Virus record (IMG/VR): IMGVR_UViG_3300046167_000733
Span: 1 to 64,000 of that record
Reading direction: 5' to 3' (one strand)
Source of the DNA: a virus
Length of the DNA stretch: 64,000 nucleotides
The position numbers and the translations under genes are program-made. A model generated the notes under the pieces. The model made no database searches, had not been told where the DNA came from, and worked only from the letters and a program-made list of their open reading frames with translations. Shown here in pieces: positions 2,141-46,306 of this stretch (the first letter of the stretch is position 1; every line of letters begins with the position of its first letter).

Positions 2141-2148
2141 TATAAATA
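2141..2148 (+). promoter_or_regulatory. T4-type late promoter L1 (tmRNA)
   Basis: Perfect TATAAATA. By T4 spacing (TATAAATA at -13 to -6) the start would be near 2154, just before the acceptor half of the tmRNA. Confidence 0.75.
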
Positions 2149-2152
2149 AGAA

Positions 2153-2530
2153 TATAGTTTGTTAATACGAACTGAAAACTAGGCAGGACGGGGGTGCGAA
2201 TCCCCCCGCCTCCACCATAAGAACTGATGAGACCCACGGAGGGATGCATACCTCTTCGCAATGAGGGCAATAGGTGATACTATCTGACCCCATTTGACCA
2301 GACGCGCAATCGAAAGTCTCTAAACCAATGTCGGTGCATTTGGGTCAGTCTTTTTGATGGGGGCGAATAGTATCGACTGATAGGAATAAGTGAGAGTAGA
2401 ACTATCGTATGACCGCGACATAGGTCAATCTAAACTAACCGCAAATGATAACTCATTCGCACATGAAAACTTTGCCCTAGCGGCATAGTCTTTCGGGGTT
2501 CGGGGACACCTAGCAACAGAAGTCCTCACT
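2153..2530 (+). ncRNA. ssrA: Circularly permuted (two-piece) tmRNA
   Basis: Transfer-messenger RNA for ribosome rescue, in permuted order. The acceptor piece comes first: T-arm GGGGG-TGCGAAT-CCCCC (2190-2206), then CGCCTCC (2207-2213), discriminator A and an encoded CCA (2215-2217). About 140 nt later the coding piece starts with GGGGGCG (2359-2365), which pairs over 7 bp, with one G-U, with 2207-2213 to close the acceptor stem. It is followed by a TATCGACTG element like the tmRNA D-region. The resume codon is GCA at 2441 and the stop is TAG ending at 2488, giving the tag ANDNSFAHENFALAA, with a classic ALAA end. Permuted tmRNAs are known from alphaproteobacteria, some cyanobacteria and some betaproteobacteria. 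The outer ends are approximate. Confidence 0.9.
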
Positions 2531-2885: not shown

Positions 2886-2953
2886 GAGGTGACATGGTCA
2901 GCACCTCTTTCCTTTCGAGAGTGGGGACATCTTAATTGGTGTCCCTTTTTTTT
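2886..2953 (+). terminator. Tandem hairpins with intrinsic terminator
   Basis: A first hairpin GAGGTG/CACCTC (2886-2891 with 2902-2907) precedes a clear intrinsic terminator: GGGACA (2924-2929) pairing with TGTCCC (2940-2945) and a run of eight T (2946-2953). It separates the tmRNA transcript from the curli-type late unit. Confidence 0.85.
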
Positions 2954-3271: not shown

Positions 3272-3511
3272 ATGGATGAGATAGTGAACGCGGTAAAGGA
3301 CTTTGGGTTTCCCATAGTTGCCGCAGTTGGAATGTTATATATGATTTACTTTGTATGGAAAACCATTACAGAGGAGATTGAAGCAAAGTTAGGTGACGCG
3401 CACGTTACCCTGATTGGACTTATTGATAGAATAAGAATGTTAGATAACGATATCATAAGACTACAACAGAAGTTAGATACCTGCGATAGAGATGAAGAGA
3501 AAACAAGATGA
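3272..3511 (+). CDS. Small membrane protein, YvrJ/holin-like (second of pair)
   Basis: 79 residues from ATG 3272; a TTG at 3266 is the alternative. It is a paralogue of the previous protein: the same amphipathic start, DFGFPIVAAVGMLYMIYFVW helix and charged helical tail. It ends in an ATGA overlap with csgF, indicating translation coupled to the curli genes. Confidence 0.6.
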   Translation: MDEIVNAVKDFGFPIVAAVGMLYMIYFVWKTITEEIEAKLGDAHVTLIGLIDRIRMLDNDIIRLQQKLDTCDRDEEKTR

Positions 3512-3993
3512 ATAGAGACGATATACTAGATAGAATAAAATACTTCTTTGGAGGTTTGATTATTGCGTGGTTGTTAGTCGCAATACAGAATACGAGTGCT
3601 TGTGCCGCACCTATAGACCATAGGTTCAAGTCACCTTCATTCAATGGACAGAATACATCAAGTCATTACCTAACGATTGAGAACCAAGAACGAACTCGTA
3701 AAGATGCGTTGGAACAAGAGATAGAAGATGCCTTAGAAGAAGCGGCAAGGGAAGCAGAGAATACTACCCTCGCAAGGTTTCTGAGAAACGTGGAGAGTAG
3801 GATTTATTCTACACTCTCAAGACAGTTAGTGGATAGCATGTTCGGAGAAGACCCATCAGATACAGGTGAGTTTTTTGTGGATGGCGCAGGGATTAGTTAT
3901 GTCGTCGATGGCGATAAAGTGGAGTTAACAATTACAGATGAATTCGGGAATGTTACGGTCATTGTTATTCCTATTGGGAATTTTGGTATCTAG
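3508..3993 (+). CDS. csgF: Curli assembly factor CsgF homologue
   Basis: 161 residues. An N-terminal hydrophobic signal or anchor (about residues 14-34, ending SACAAP) leads to a mature start rich in F/S/P/N (HRFKSPSFNGQN), resembling the CsgF N-terminus (FxFRNPNFGGNP) that inserts into the CsgG pore. A Glu/Ala-rich helix follows, then a C-terminal region with YVVDGDKVELTITDE and a V-rich strand that aligns with CsgF's YIVDIANRDGQLQLNVTD. In bacteria CsgF couples the CsgG channel to the nucleator. It overlaps csgG by 56 bases in another frame. Confidence 0.8.
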   Translation: MNRDDILDRIKYFFGGLIIAWLLVAIQNTSACAAPIDHRFKSPSFNGQNTSSHYLTIENQERTRKDALEQEIEDALEEAAREAENTTLARFLRNVESRIYSTLSRQLVDSMFGEDPSDTGEFFVDGAGISYVVDGDKVELTITDEFGNVTVIVIPIGNFGI

Positions 3994-4759
3994 TTGTTCA
4001 AGTCTTGGTATTGAGGAAATCACACTAAGACAAACAGTAGAAGATGCCCAAGTCCAACAAGAGTTACTCTCAGAGAAACTCAAGAATGTTGGAGAACCCG
4101 TTAGGAAACCTTCGGTTGCGATTTATTCGTTTACTGATAAGACAGGACAAAAGAGACAGACAAGTAGTGGTGGTACTTCATTTAGTTCTGCCGTTACACA
4201 AGCACCAGATACTTATCTGATACGCGCGTTGACTCGTGCGGGGAATGGTAAGTTTTTCAAGGTGGTTGACAGGACTCAACTTGAGTCGTTGACAAGAGAA
4301 AGACAACTTATAAGACAGACTAGAAGTTCTTATGAGGGGGAAGGTGCAAAGAAACTACCTGCATTGACTTTTGCGGGTATGATTATTGCAGGAGGTATTG
4401 TGGGTTACGACCACAGTATCGAATCAGGCGGTGATGGTGCGAGGTATCTCGGTATCGGTTCATCGCGTGAGTTTAGTCGTGACACGGTGACTATAAACAT
4501 ACGATTGATAAGTGTCGCGACGGGTGAAGTTTTACTTGATGTAATAACAAGTAAGACTATTTTGTCTACTGCCATTGGCGGTGACATATTTCGTTTTGTA
4601 GAACAGGGTACTAGACTTGTTGAGGTTGAGTCTGGTGTTGCCCGTAACGAGAGTGTTTCGATTGCAACTCAACGTGCTATTGAGACAGGGGTTTTAGAAC
4701 TTATTATTCGGGGAAAAGATAAAAAGTACTGGACTTTAATTAAAGATATAAGAGGATAA
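3938..4759 (+). CDS. csgG: Curli secretion channel CsgG homologue
   Basis: 273 residues. The N-terminus is a lipoprotein signal ending at a VSSC lipobox (Cys near residue 21); the whole signal is encoded inside the 3' end of csgF. The family pattern continues with VAIYSFTDKTGQ, EVVDRTQLESLTRERQ-like spacing, IIAGGIVGYD, ARYLGIG, TVTINIRLISVATGEVL and a C-terminal ESGVARNESVSIATQRAIETGV. All are hallmarks of CsgG, which forms the nonameric outer-membrane pore for curlin export. Length agrees with E. coli CsgG (277). ATG 3950 is an alternative start. Confidence 0.93.
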   Translation: MNSGMLRSLLFLLGILVSSCSSLGIEEITLRQTVEDAQVQQELLSEKLKNVGEPVRKPSVAIYSFTDKTGQKRQTSSGGTSFSSAVTQAPDTYLIRALTRAGNGKFFKVVDRTQLESLTRERQLIRQTRSSYEGEGAKKLPALTFAGMIIAGGIVGYDHSIESGGDGARYLGIGSSREFSRDTVTINIRLISVATGEVLLDVITSKTILSTAIGGDIFRFVEQGTRLVEVESGVARNESVSIATQRAIETGVLELIIRGKDKKYWTLIKDIRG

Positions 4760-4763
4760 TCTA

Positions 4764-5492
4764 ATGGCGATTTTTAAAAATATCGTTTTTGTTATGATGT
4801 TTTTACTGCCTAGTTTTGCGTTCGCGCAGGACAATGAAATCTATATAGACCAATCTGGTGCGGGTGTCACAATCGATATCACACAAGATGGTTCTGGTAA
4901 CAAAGTGGGTGGTTCAGATACTGACTCAACTAAAATGCTAATAAGTGGTGATAATATTGCCCTTAGTATCGATGCGGTTGGAACAGGTAACGACGTGATT
5001 GGTAATATTGTTGGAGACAATAATAGTGTCGATTTAGATGTTGTTGGTTCAACAAACGCAATCAATCTAAACATTGATGCGGCAGATGTATACGGTTCAA
5101 CAGGGGGTTCATTCAATCTAAACCTTGCTGGTTCTGGTAATAATGTTGACCTTGATGTTGCAGGAAATGACCAAGCAAACAACGCAGACTTTGATTGGTT
5201 ACTTGATGGGGATTACAACACCCTTGATTTTGATATCGACGCAAACGACTATACAAGTGAAATGGATATCATAGGTGACAATAATACTTTGACAGTAGAT
5301 GTCGATGGGTATGATGGTCACAGTATGAATATAGATGGTTCGGGTAGTTATTGGGATGTCACTATTGACCAACAATCAACATTACAAACCGATAGTTTGG
5401 AGATAGATTTCAATGGTTCTGGAACAAGTACGACACCTGCTACGATTTGTATTAGTCAGTCTGATTCTGGTACTGCCACAGGTTGCAACTAG
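4764..5492 (+). CDS. Secreted curlin-like repeat protein
   Basis: 242 residues with a clear signal peptide (residues 1-21, AFA/QD cleavage). The mature part consists of about ten imperfect repeats of roughly 20-25 residues built on G-x-x-N and alternating hydrophobic/Asp strands, as in VDLDVVG, LNLNIDA and VDLDVAG. This is the layout of curlin subunits (CsgA/CsgB), here with Asp in place of most Gln. Two Cys occur near the C-terminus. It lies directly after csgG, so it is the likely exported fibre subunit. A calcium-binding beta-solenoid is the alternative. Confidence 0.75.
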   Translation: MAIFKNIVFVMMFLLPSFAFAQDNEIYIDQSGAGVTIDITQDGSGNKVGGSDTDSTKMLISGDNIALSIDAVGTGNDVIGNIVGDNNSVDLDVVGSTNAINLNIDAADVYGSTGGSFNLNLAGSGNNVDLDVAGNDQANNADFDWLLDGDYNTLDFDIDANDYTSEMDIIGDNNTLTVDVDGYDGHSMNIDGSGSYWDVTIDQQSTLQTDSLEIDFNGSGTSTTPATICISQSDSGTATGCN

Positions 5493-6542
5493 TCTAGAAG
5501 ATATAGGTGCTGTTGACCGCGCAGTCGGTTGGCGACAGGTAGTAAGAGAAACAAAAGAGTTAGAACCCAACAAGGGTTTTGACGTTATATCAAACGATGA
5601 CCTTCGTACAGGTGACGGACGAATGCAAGTACGTTTCGTTGATGACAGTAAACTACGGATGACAGAACATACCCGTATCGTCATTGACAATGTTGTGTTC
5701 GACAAAGACCCAAGTAAGTCAGACCTTGCTATGACCTTTGCCCAAGGAACTGCCAGATTTATTTCTGGTGGACTTGGTAAGGTAGACAAAGAGAATATCA
5801 GACTCAAAACTCCGACTGCCACGATTGGTATCAGGGGTACAGATTTTACAGTTACTGTAGATGAGTTTCGGTAAGAGTCTTGATTGTTCTCCTTCCCGAC
5901 ATAAACGGAGTATCCTCTGGTGAGATTATTGTATCCACTATGGCAGGGGAAGTTGTTCTCAATAAACCTTTTGAGAGTACAACGACAACTCTATTTGAAT
6001 CACCACCTTCCAATCCTGCTATCCTAAATTTGAGTTTGGATATGTTGAACAACATCATGATAATAAATCCACCAAAGGAAGAACAGACCTATGCTGACTT
6101 TATGGATACACTCAACGAAAAGAAGAATATAAATCCTCTTGATATTGACTTCCTTGATGAAGCACTATTAGATGAAGACGAACTTGACAGAGACTACCTT
6201 GAGTTTACAGAATTAGATGTAGACTTTTTGAATGTTGATTTCTTACAAGACCTTCTTGATGATTACTCTGACATACTAGATGACAAAGGTTTCCTTAGTG
6301 ATGAACAGAAAGGTGGCGACCTACGCATAGAAGGAACTGAAGAGGGATTTGACACTACTACACAGTTCAACACAATCGTAGATGCCAAGGAAGTAAGACT
6401 ACTTAGAAATGTAAATGATATTGTTGACATAAGTACTGATGTAGAACAATCTACTAGAATAATATATGAGAGTGATGGAATAGAGTTTGACGACATCGTA
6501 ATAAATGGTGGTCAATCTACAACACTAACGATAAAGCAATAA
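5413..6542 (+). CDS. FecR-domain secreted protein (frame broken)
   Basis: Periplasmic or surface protein of about 375 residues once two single-base insertions (near 5866-5869 and 5879-5882) are removed. Signal peptide at residues 8-27; its coding sequence overlaps the curlin gene's 3' end by 80 bases. Residues about 55-155 are a FecR domain: LRTGDGRMQVRFVDDSKLRM, then ARFISGG, then TPTATIGIRGTDFTV. The C-terminal half is very acidic with repeated DFLD/VDFLN units. FecR domains act in envelope sensing, and FecR proteins next to CHASE2 cyclases are a known bacterial arrangement. As written, the reading stops at 5874 and resumes at about 5880. Confidence 0.85.
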
Positions 6543-6543
6543 T

Positions 6544-8369
6544 ATGAAAAACTGGCACGTACTCGTAACACTCGGACTACTTTTACTAGTGAGAATATCC
6601 GACCCATTTATGTTAGAGAGTGCTAGGTTATCTTGGTTTGATGGATTACAGAGAGACCAAGAACCTACTAAGTCAGAACAGATTGTTCTCGTAGATATAG
6701 ACGAACCTACACTGGAGAAGTTAGGGTCAGTATCCTATACCAAGAGATATCCTAGCAGAATATATTGATGAAGCACCAGAGGCACTTATTGGATTGAATG
6801 TCTTGTTATCAGAAGAAGACAGGTTCGGAGGAGATGCCGCACTCGCATCAGCATTGTCCTGGAAGAATAGTGTCCTTGCTATAACTCCTTCAAGTAAAAC
6901 GAATACAAAATACAGACCACCACAAATTGGTACTGCTACATTCGGAGAGAAGGACGCAACGGACTTCCTACCAGAACTCAACGGAATGTTATTTGCGAGA
7001 GAAGAACTTCACGACGCATCACTAGGATATGGTACAATATCTTCATCACGAGATGTGGACGGAATACTACGACGCGCACCTCTACTTGAATACTTTGACA
7101 ATAGAATATATCCCGCATTCGCATTAGATATACTCAGGGTTGCGGCAGGAGATATCTCATATCAAATCAGTCACAGACGATTATGGTATTCAGTTTGTTA
7201 GGATACCTGCCTTCAAGAACATACCTACAGATATAAACGGCAATGTTCAGATAGCATTCTGGAATCAGTTCGAACGATATTCCTTTACAGATATAGACAA
7301 GATACCCGAAGGAAGTATTGCGATAGTTGGTGCGACCTTTGAGGGAAGTCCTGTTGTAACAACTCCTATCGGTAATATGTATCCACACGATATTCAAGCA
7401 AACCTTATCAAGACGATGATAGATGGTGTTGTCATAACAAGACCAGACGAGTTCTTTATATACGAACTTCTCTTTACACTGGTTGTATCTTTACTACTTC
7501 TCTTTGCTCTTGTCAAGTTATCGATATGGGTATCAGGGGTGGGATTTGTTGCGATATCTGTTCTGTCTGTAATGGGTGCTACATCACTCTTCACTAAATC
7601 GTATCTATTGATTGACCCTGTGTTCCCGTTACTCGCATTACTACTTGTATTCTCACACGGAAGTTTCGTTCAGTTCTATACTCAGTTCAAACTAAAACAA
7701 CAAATCAAAGCACAGTTCGGAACCTACCTAGACCCAAGACAAGTCGAACAACTTCAGAAAAATCCAGACCTATTGAAGTTAGGTGGAGAGAGACGCGAGA
7801 TGTCTTATATGTTTACTGACATTATTGGGTTTACTCCTATATCAGAACACTATAAGAACAACGATGACCCCGAAGGATTATGCGAACTTATAAATGAATA
7901 CCTAGATGAAGTCACTCAAATCGTTTTGAATAATGGTGGTATGATTGACAAGTTCATGGGCGACTGCATAATGGCAGTATTCTCCGCACCTATTGTAATG
8001 GAGAACCACGCAGAGATGGCAGTCAAGTCTGCTATAGAGATAGAACAGAAGACCCTTGAACTCAAGAAGTTATATAAAGAACGAGGACTACCCGATATAA
8101 ATGTTGGGACAGGGGTGAATACTGGAACCGCAATCCTTGGTAACATGGGTAGTAGTACACGATTTGATTACTCTGTAATTGGTGATGCCGTCAATCTTGC
8201 GGCACGATTAGAAGCAACTGCGGGTAGAGGAGACTATAAAGACACTCCAACAATCTATTCATCATATACAAAAGACCTCTTACCCGACACAATAAAGTCT
8301 GTCAAGATAGGCGATATCAAAGTCAAGGGTAAAGAAGAACTCATCGAAATATACTCCCCACAAAAATAA
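6544..8369 (+). CDS. CHASE2-domain class III adenylate cyclase (frame broken)
   Basis: About 607 residues after removing two single-base insertions (GGG at 6724-6726; 7164-7169). N-terminal membrane helix, then a periplasmic CHASE2 sensor (FDGLQRDQ, IVLVDIDEPTLEKLG, LLSEEDRFGGD). Three membrane helices follow (about 302-380), then a cytoplasmic cyclase domain (about 415-600). Catalytic features are present: the metal Asp of FTDIIGF, the Lys and metal Asp of DKFMGD, and the transition-state Asn/Arg of VNLAARLEA. It should make cAMP from ATP in response to an envelope signal. It follows the FecR gene by one base, suggesting that FecR, curli-like fibre and cyclase form one sensing unit. Confidence 0.9.
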
Positions 8370-12325: not shown

Positions 12326-13004
12326 ATGTTTATACACGAATCAGTAAAACTCACAGAGATGGATGCCGTCACAACCGAGAAGGGTCGTAAATATCGTACA
12401 CCCGAAGGTGTTGACTTGCCCTCTATCACAACAGTACTTTCAATCCTGTCAAGAGATAGTATTGCGAAGTGGCGTAAGAGAGTAGGAGCAAAAGAAGCAA
12501 ACCGTATCTCTGGTAAGGCATCGGGTCGTGGTACTCGCGTTCATGAGATTACCGAGAAGTATATTGACAATAACCCTAACTACAAAGAAGGGTACACCCC
12601 TGATATCATTCATTCCGTTCAATGTGATGAAACCAATCCTTGATGGATTTATTGGTAAGGTCTATGCTCAAGAAGCACCTCTGTATTCCAATCACCTTGG
12701 AGTTGCAGGACGAGTTGACTGCGTTGCTGAGTTTGATGGAGTACTATCCATCATCGACTTCAAGACCTCAATGAAACCTAAGAAGAGAGAATGGGTCAAG
12801 AACTACTTTATGCAGGAAGCGGCATATGCCATAATGTGGGAAGAACGTACAGGTCAACCTATCACTCAACTTGTCACTATCATATCAGTAGATGGCAAAG
12901 ACAAACCACAAATCTATGTAGAACATCGTGATAACTGGATAAACACTCTGAGAGACACAATAAAAAAGTATAATGAGGAAAACTCTAGTTCCGTTTTGTT
13001 ATAA
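12326..13004 (+). CDS. Cas4/RecB-like PD-(D/E)XK exonuclease (frame broken)
   Basis: About 225 residues after removing one inserted base near 12613-12624. It resembles the T4-like-phage exonucleases of the RecB/Cas4 family: LPSITTVLSIL start, HEITEKYI, then AGRVDCVAEFDGVLSIIDFKTSMK, which holds the nuclease core (D...D-x-K), and QEAAYAIMWEERTG, the usual Gln-containing motif IV. Likely role in DNA degradation or recombination. Transcribed from early promoter P5. Confidence 0.82.
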
Positions 13005-46038: not shown

Positions 46039-46306
46039 TTTTATACAGGGTGGAGCAGATAGTCCTACCGACGAAAAAGAAGAAAGTAATTTCTTAAACA
46101 AAAAAATGTTCAGTAAGTTGATAGAAGATACCGTAAGGAAAATGTCTATGTCTTATATGGATGCCGTAGTATATCTCTGCGAGGAGATGACAATCGAGAT
46201 TGAAGATGTTAAGAAATATCTATCAGTATCTATCAAAGAGAGGATTGAGGCAGAAGCAATGAACCTAAACTTTCTTGAGAAGTCTCACCCATTACCCACA
46301 ACATAG
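46028..46306 (+). CDS. gp33: gp33-like late transcription co-activator
   Basis: 92 residues from ATG 46028. The helical core FSKLIEDTVRKMSMSYMDAVVYLCEEMTIEIEDVKKYLS with NFLEKSHPLP end matches T4 gp33, which binds the RNA polymerase flap and couples late promoters to the sliding clamp. This fits the many TATAAATA promoters here. gp55, the partner late sigma factor, is not in the window. Confidence 0.85.
   Translation: MKVDFIQGGADSPTDEKEESNFLNKKMFSKLIEDTVRKMSMSYMDAVVYLCEEMTIEIEDVKKYLSVSIKERIEAEAMNLNFLEKSHPLPTT

Follow-up and report, generated by a model that had tools for sequence, protein, structure and literature searches.

The DNA analysed here, called the window, comprises bases 1-64000 of a linear virus record of 107,776 bases (IMG/VR IMGVR_UViG_3300046167_000733), which is incomplete. 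Near its start lies a gene for a permuted, two-piece transfer-messenger RNA (tmRNA), whose parts and neighbours are listed in Table 1. The initial annotation had placed a permuted tmRNA at 2153-2530 and had proposed an Infernal-type comparison with alpha_tmRNA and related Rfam models; the identification was borne out by two such models, ARAGORN and direct reading, and the coordinates were right within a few bases. RF04321 (tmRNA_permuted) matched bases 2155-2488 with 90.5 bits (E 4e-16; full model, 1-213 of 213) and RF01849 (alpha_tmRNA) matched bases 2118-2530 with 82.7 bits (E 7e-21; full model, 1-355 of 355), both well over the gathering score. ARAGORN independently called a permuted tmRNA ("tmRNA*") at 2125-2579 with the tag ANDNSFAHENFALAA. 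The match of bases 2155-2530 to a permuted tmRNA is far beyond chance, and three near-identical contigs (L002-L004) carry the same gene.

Table 1. Features of the tmRNA locus (positions in the window)
Feature	Position	Strand	Basis or remark
T4-type late promoter box TATAAATA	2141-2148	+	predicted start ~A2154, the 5' end of the acceptor piece
Acceptor piece	2155-2217	+	5' hairpin, P2 strand CAG 2184-2186, T-arm 2190-2206; RF04321 and RF01849 alignments, direct reading
Acceptor 3' strand CGCCUCC	2207-2213	+	direct reading
Encoded ACCA	2214-2217	+	direct reading
Intervening spacer, 141 nucleotides (nt), presumed removed	2218-2358	+	length range among phage tmRNAs, own-end duplex energy
Coding piece	2359-2530	+	acceptor 5' strand GGGGGCG 2359-2365, UCGA region, P2 CTG 2377-2379, tag, 3' hairpin region to CACU; RF01849 to 2530
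Tag frame ANDNSFAHENFALAA (2441-2485) and stop TAG (2486-2488)	2441-2488	+	ARAGORN
Intrinsic-terminator-like hairpin with T-run, end of the tmRNA/small open reading frame (ORF) unit	2923-2946	+	
CsgF	3508-3993	+	Pfam PF10614/PF03783 (CsgF/CsgG pair), 3' of tmRNA
CsgG	3938-4759	+	Pfam PF10614/PF03783 (CsgF/CsgG pair), 3' of tmRNA

Both direct reading and the full-length alignments to the permuted models place the acceptor half, with its CCA, 5' of the coding half. The acceptor stem, initially described as a perfect 7-bp stem with one G-U, indeed pairs at 7/7 positions on direct reading, and its sole G-U is G3-U70. As G3-U70 is a known alanine identity element, this G-U speaks for function and is no flaw. 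All five pairs of the T-stem are formed, and the P2 helix (CAG with CUG) joins the two pieces. The tag has a resume codon, a stop and a hydrophobic LAA-type end, and the reading as a phage-borne permuted tmRNA with its tag intact is supported. Within the spacer, a search for known RNAs or riboswitches gave just chance-level Rfam matches apart from the tmRNA models.

For comparison, at least 87 distinct permuted tmRNAs were extracted by script from viral loci found, among the matches listed, by CsgG similarity and DNA-pattern searches. Related permuted tmRNAs scored over the cut-off in 15 of 49 related records, those of phages Melnitz and HTVC008M included. All three P2 pairs between the pieces were present in 73/83 sequences, against a mean of 30 and a maximum of 42 when sequences were shuffled (this pairing was not a selection criterion), and the pair types varied (CUG/CAG, CAG/CUG, UCG/CGG and GAG/CUA). 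The helix joining both pieces thus covaries. The CCA is encoded in 86/87; in L063 (G041:203004-203229; tag ANDEQFALAA) the 3' end reads ACCT, and CCA would need post-transcriptional completion. Several good permuted phage tmRNAs found by RF04321 were missed by ARAGORN (L059-L062 and L064-L066, whose spacers span 12-81 nt and whose tags include ANDNYAHEDYALAA), so that phage tmRNA counts based on ARAGORN are probably too low.

The spacer, likewise free of any selection requirement, varies from 11 to 159 nt in the 87 phage tmRNAs (median 62), which indirectly supports the view that the transcript is probably split into two pieces. When the first 14 and last 18 nt of 63 distinct spacers (24 nt or longer) were paired, the mean duplex energy with the spacer's own partner was -10.4 kcal/mol versus -4.9 kcal/mol for permuted partners; the lowest of 2000 permutations was -6.2 kcal/mol. 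In many precursors, therefore, a second helix appears to follow the acceptor stem straight after the CCA, the two being continuous across ACCA/UGAU. Both RF01849 and RF04321 draw the spacer unpaired. In the window, AAGAaCUGA (2219-2227) can pair with UCAGUCUU (2345-2352) at -8.0 kcal/mol. A few spacers of 11-12 nt are too short for such a closing helix, which may be a general feature and not a phage trait, the phage set alone having been compared.

The box TATAAATA occurs 17 times in the window, where 5.5 are expected, and none of 100 shuffles reached 17. For eleven of these sites an ORF on the same strand starts 3-38 nt further on, in several cases a baseplate gene, and one site precedes the tmRNA. 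Among the phage tmRNAs, 35/86 carry an exact box 60-72 nt 5' of the acceptor 3' strand, compared with 0.16 expected from shuffles. Transcription of T4 late genes starts about 6 nt past the box, which here predicts a start at about A2154, matching the beginning of the acceptor piece. Also present in the record are genes for a gp55-type late sigma factor (record positions 104296-104712; 46% identity to the Melnitz homologue, E 3e-35) and a gp33-type coactivator (record positions 46082-46297, E 7e-9). In 16 relatives, Melnitz among them, a TTGAC-type -35 box (at most one mismatch) is found 17-18 nt before TATAAATA. At that position the window has 5/6 mismatches, the box is missing too in its two closest relatives, and no sigma-70 site was found on the + strand before the tmRNA gene in the window. 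The Melnitz study counted sigma-70 sites predicted by BPROM as early (PMC9004378), and the -35 box beside the Melnitz TATAAATA can account for the classification of this promoter as early there. Since the window keeps TATAAATA and has no -35 box, late-only expression is the better prediction for its tmRNA, unlike the early expression proposed for Melnitz.

The 87 sequences hold 72 distinct tags, and in 79 of the 87 the tag ends in LAA. Close pairs of viral tags gave a ratio of nonsynonymous to synonymous differences (pN/pS) of about 0.29, with overlapping pairs and a filtered tag end; the tag is conserved as a peptide and variable in its middle. The variant GGGGNCNCCTAGCAACAGAAGTCC was present in 37 viral contigs and in 0 of 84,980 bacterial or archaeal genomes (exact matching only), a distribution suggesting a phage lineage of long standing and not a recent copy. 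The proposal that a permuted tmRNA points to an alphaproteobacterial host fared less well: Melnitz has an alpha-type permuted tmRNA and infects OM43 (Methylophilales) (PMC9004378). Together with the viral-only GGGGNCNCCTAGCAACAGAAGTCC, this case weakens the tmRNA as a host clue, and an alpha-type tmRNA alone should not be used to assign an alphaproteobacterial host. Two exact-pattern scans of the 84,980 genomes for a host of the tmRNA gave no match, a plasmid search yielded weak Methylobacterium matches only, and a Caulobacter-like tag string had no match in a search of papers.

Phage permuted tmRNAs of this sort have already been published, and the window gene is a further member. The two-piece form was described in Melnitz, in a study in which 53 of 133 unique phage tmRNA structures were two-piece, 50 of those 53 being marine or aquatic, and permuted tmRNAs occurred in 17 of 47 related contigs (PMC9004378). 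For phage tmRNAs of every form, the paper on the tmRNA database counts 79 unique sequences (PMC11915505). Like the window, Melnitz (MZ577097; PMC9004378) is a T4-like Kyanoviridae phage with an alpha-type permuted tmRNA 5' of CsgF/CsgG, a spacer of nearly equal length (142 nt versus 141 nt) and TATAAATA at the same place; it differs in its tag (ANDNYVPVDYALAA versus ANDNSFAHENFALAA), in a perfect -35 box at 17 nt, which the window lacks, and in a glutamine riboswitch (RF01739) after the tmRNA. RF01739 was not found in window bases 1900-2800 at E up to 0.1, nor in the whole window at the gathering score, and the window gene is therefore filed as a permuted phage tmRNA that is not riboswitch-linked, the riboswitch not being stated as a defining feature. 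The curli-bearing pelagimyophage HTVC008M (KC465899, 145161-145370) likewise has a permuted tmRNA, but with the tag ANFNEYALAA, a spacer of 49 nt and no TATAAATA at the conserved place, and the tmRNA gene and the curli genes occupy different parts of the deposited record. The HTVC008M tmRNA (L057, L234) is unannotated in that record and overlaps the end of a hypothetical ORF. Chromosomal alphaproteobacterial tmRNA (RF01849, RF04321) shares with the window the order of halves, the stems, the UCGA region, the resume codon, the LAA end and the CAACAGAA 3' region; the alpha_tmRNA consensus reads CCuGGCAACAGAA, whereas the phage lineage of the window reads CCTAGCAACAGAAGTCC. Mycobacteriophage DS6A also encodes a tmRNA-derived RNA, which is tag-less and comprises little beyond the tRNA-like domain, unlike the window gene with its full tag frame (PMC4131195).

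Taken jointly, it is very probable that the window carries an intact alpha-type permuted tmRNA of a T4-like marine phage that is transcribed late, matured and charged by the host, and that tags peptides and frees ribosomes. Sequence comparison shows the family, the intact frame, both stems, the pairing between the pieces and the promoter position; the timing of transcription, processing, charging, tagging and benefit would be as follows. Transcription would begin at the T4-type late promoter, at the 5' end of the acceptor piece, and the precursor would fold with the acceptor stem and the spacer-closing helix. Host enzymes would then remove the spacer, RNase P cutting at the 5' end of the coding piece and 3' trimming proceeding to the encoded CCA, and the two resulting pieces would be held by the acceptor stem and P2. 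The host alanyl-tRNA synthetase would charge the tmRNA through G3-U70, host SmpB would bring it to stalled ribosomes, and the tag ANDNSFAHENFALAA would label the released peptide for host proteases. From this we naturally infer the ribosome-rescue role that the initial annotation had suggested for the phage; the likeliest benefit would be that ribosomes are kept available late in infection, as broken and non-stop mRNAs pile up. Several points weigh against this account. Because the extraction script selected for paired acceptor and T-stems, G at position 3 and tags with AA at the end, these features are not independent evidence; the sequences are also related, so the shuffles overstate significance. 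The spacer helix of the window (-8.0 kcal/mol) is weaker than average, and its spacer alone folds no better than shuffles (z -0.5). SmpB was not found in the 107,776-base phage record, in keeping with a need for host SmpB, but the record is incomplete and a phage SmpB may lie elsewhere.

The early expression proposed for Melnitz, with host proteins tagged for the recycling of amino acids, would be an unlikely course for the window gene. The arrangement TTGACA-17-TATAAATA in Melnitz and many relatives means that one site is possibly used both early and late there, and read-through from an upstream early promoter into the window tmRNA is possible, but the window combines a mismatched -35 position and the lack of a + strand sigma-70 site 5' of the gene with a retained TATAAATA. 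A decoy or inhibitor that binds SmpB or ribosomes and so blocks trans-translation in the host, a role suggested for the DS6A tmRNA, which has no tag, is very unlikely: a tmRNA-like RNA of that sort has been reported to inhibit tmRNA (PMC4131195), and the failure to find SmpB in the phage record would suit such a role, but the tag frame is complete, with an LAA end and the pN/pS of a conserved peptide, and neither the two pieces nor the encoded CCA are damaged. We regard as extremely improbable a functionless passenger, whether a chance copy of a host gene or the remnant of an attachment site. Although tmRNA genes are common integration sites (PMC11915505), this gene is full-length, lies near the curli cassette in relatives too, has its own promoter and conserves its stems with compensatory changes, and GGGGNCNCCTAGCAACAGAAGTCC is confined to the viral contigs among the sequences scanned.

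With the window gene, the small body of work on phage two-piece tmRNAs gains a well-supported example, and what is new mainly concerns its activation, which is probably late, and the folding of its precursor. Concrete predictions for the gene are late expression, transcription starting at the acceptor piece, and a hairpin in the precursor. More tentatively, and with considerable doubt on our part, marine T4-like phages might run a late, phage-specific rescue system, in which the late sigma factor starts the tmRNA exactly at its acceptor piece, the precursor is a hairpin, and the phage has shaped the tag to give late stalled products a fate other than that of host-tagged proteins; in some relatives one site might be shared by sigma-70 (early) and the phage sigma factor (late).

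The gene sits among those of a marine T4-like phage belonging to the Melnitz/pelagimyophage group. T4-type baseplate wedge and hub, tail, tail tube cap and head closure proteins are encoded, together with endolysins, PhoH and NrdA/B. Among named phages, C48C1 gave the best baseplate match, at 43% identity, which indicates that this phage is no close copy of any named phage in that collection. DNA similarity to named phages was restricted to a sole match of 36 bases with Caulobacter phages, over the T-arm and acceptor end of the tmRNA. On the 3' side of the tmRNA lie CsgF, CsgG, a curlin-repeat-like protein, FecR and a CHASE2-cyclase protein. The CsgF/CsgG cassette is known from pelagimyophages (PMC7029224), and the same cassette is annotated in HTVC008M and Melnitz. 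The curlin-repeat-like protein (4764-5489) has a signal-like N-terminus and adjoins CsgF/CsgG, and the CHASE2 protein with its adenylate/guanylate cyclase domain is at 7140-8369; the region 3508-8369 forms a putative signalling and secretion cassette in these phages.

Between the tmRNA and this cassette, a conserved element (GGTTGGTCGCnnAATAGACCCGyGAG...) occupies window bases 2863-2922 and recurs at L005:6877, L007:6878, L008:6901, L010:6896, L041:6890 and L230:4076. The hairpin that follows it covaries (GAGGUG/CACCUC, GAGACG/CGUCUC, GAGAGAC/GUCUCUC), has a conserved loop like CCACGGUUAG and is followed by a T-run in most copies. The core of the element was matched in 11 viral contigs and had no Rfam match at the gathering score in the window; it is possibly a structured terminator or small RNA. 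Two reading frames in the window are split. The FecR-domain protein is divided between ORFs 5413-5874 and 5880-6542, which match residues 10-153 and 176-380 of PHROG 37870, pointing to a frameshift or an assembly error, and an exonuclease (PHROG 298) is spread over two overlapping ORFs at 12326-13004, a possible frameshift or sequencing error.
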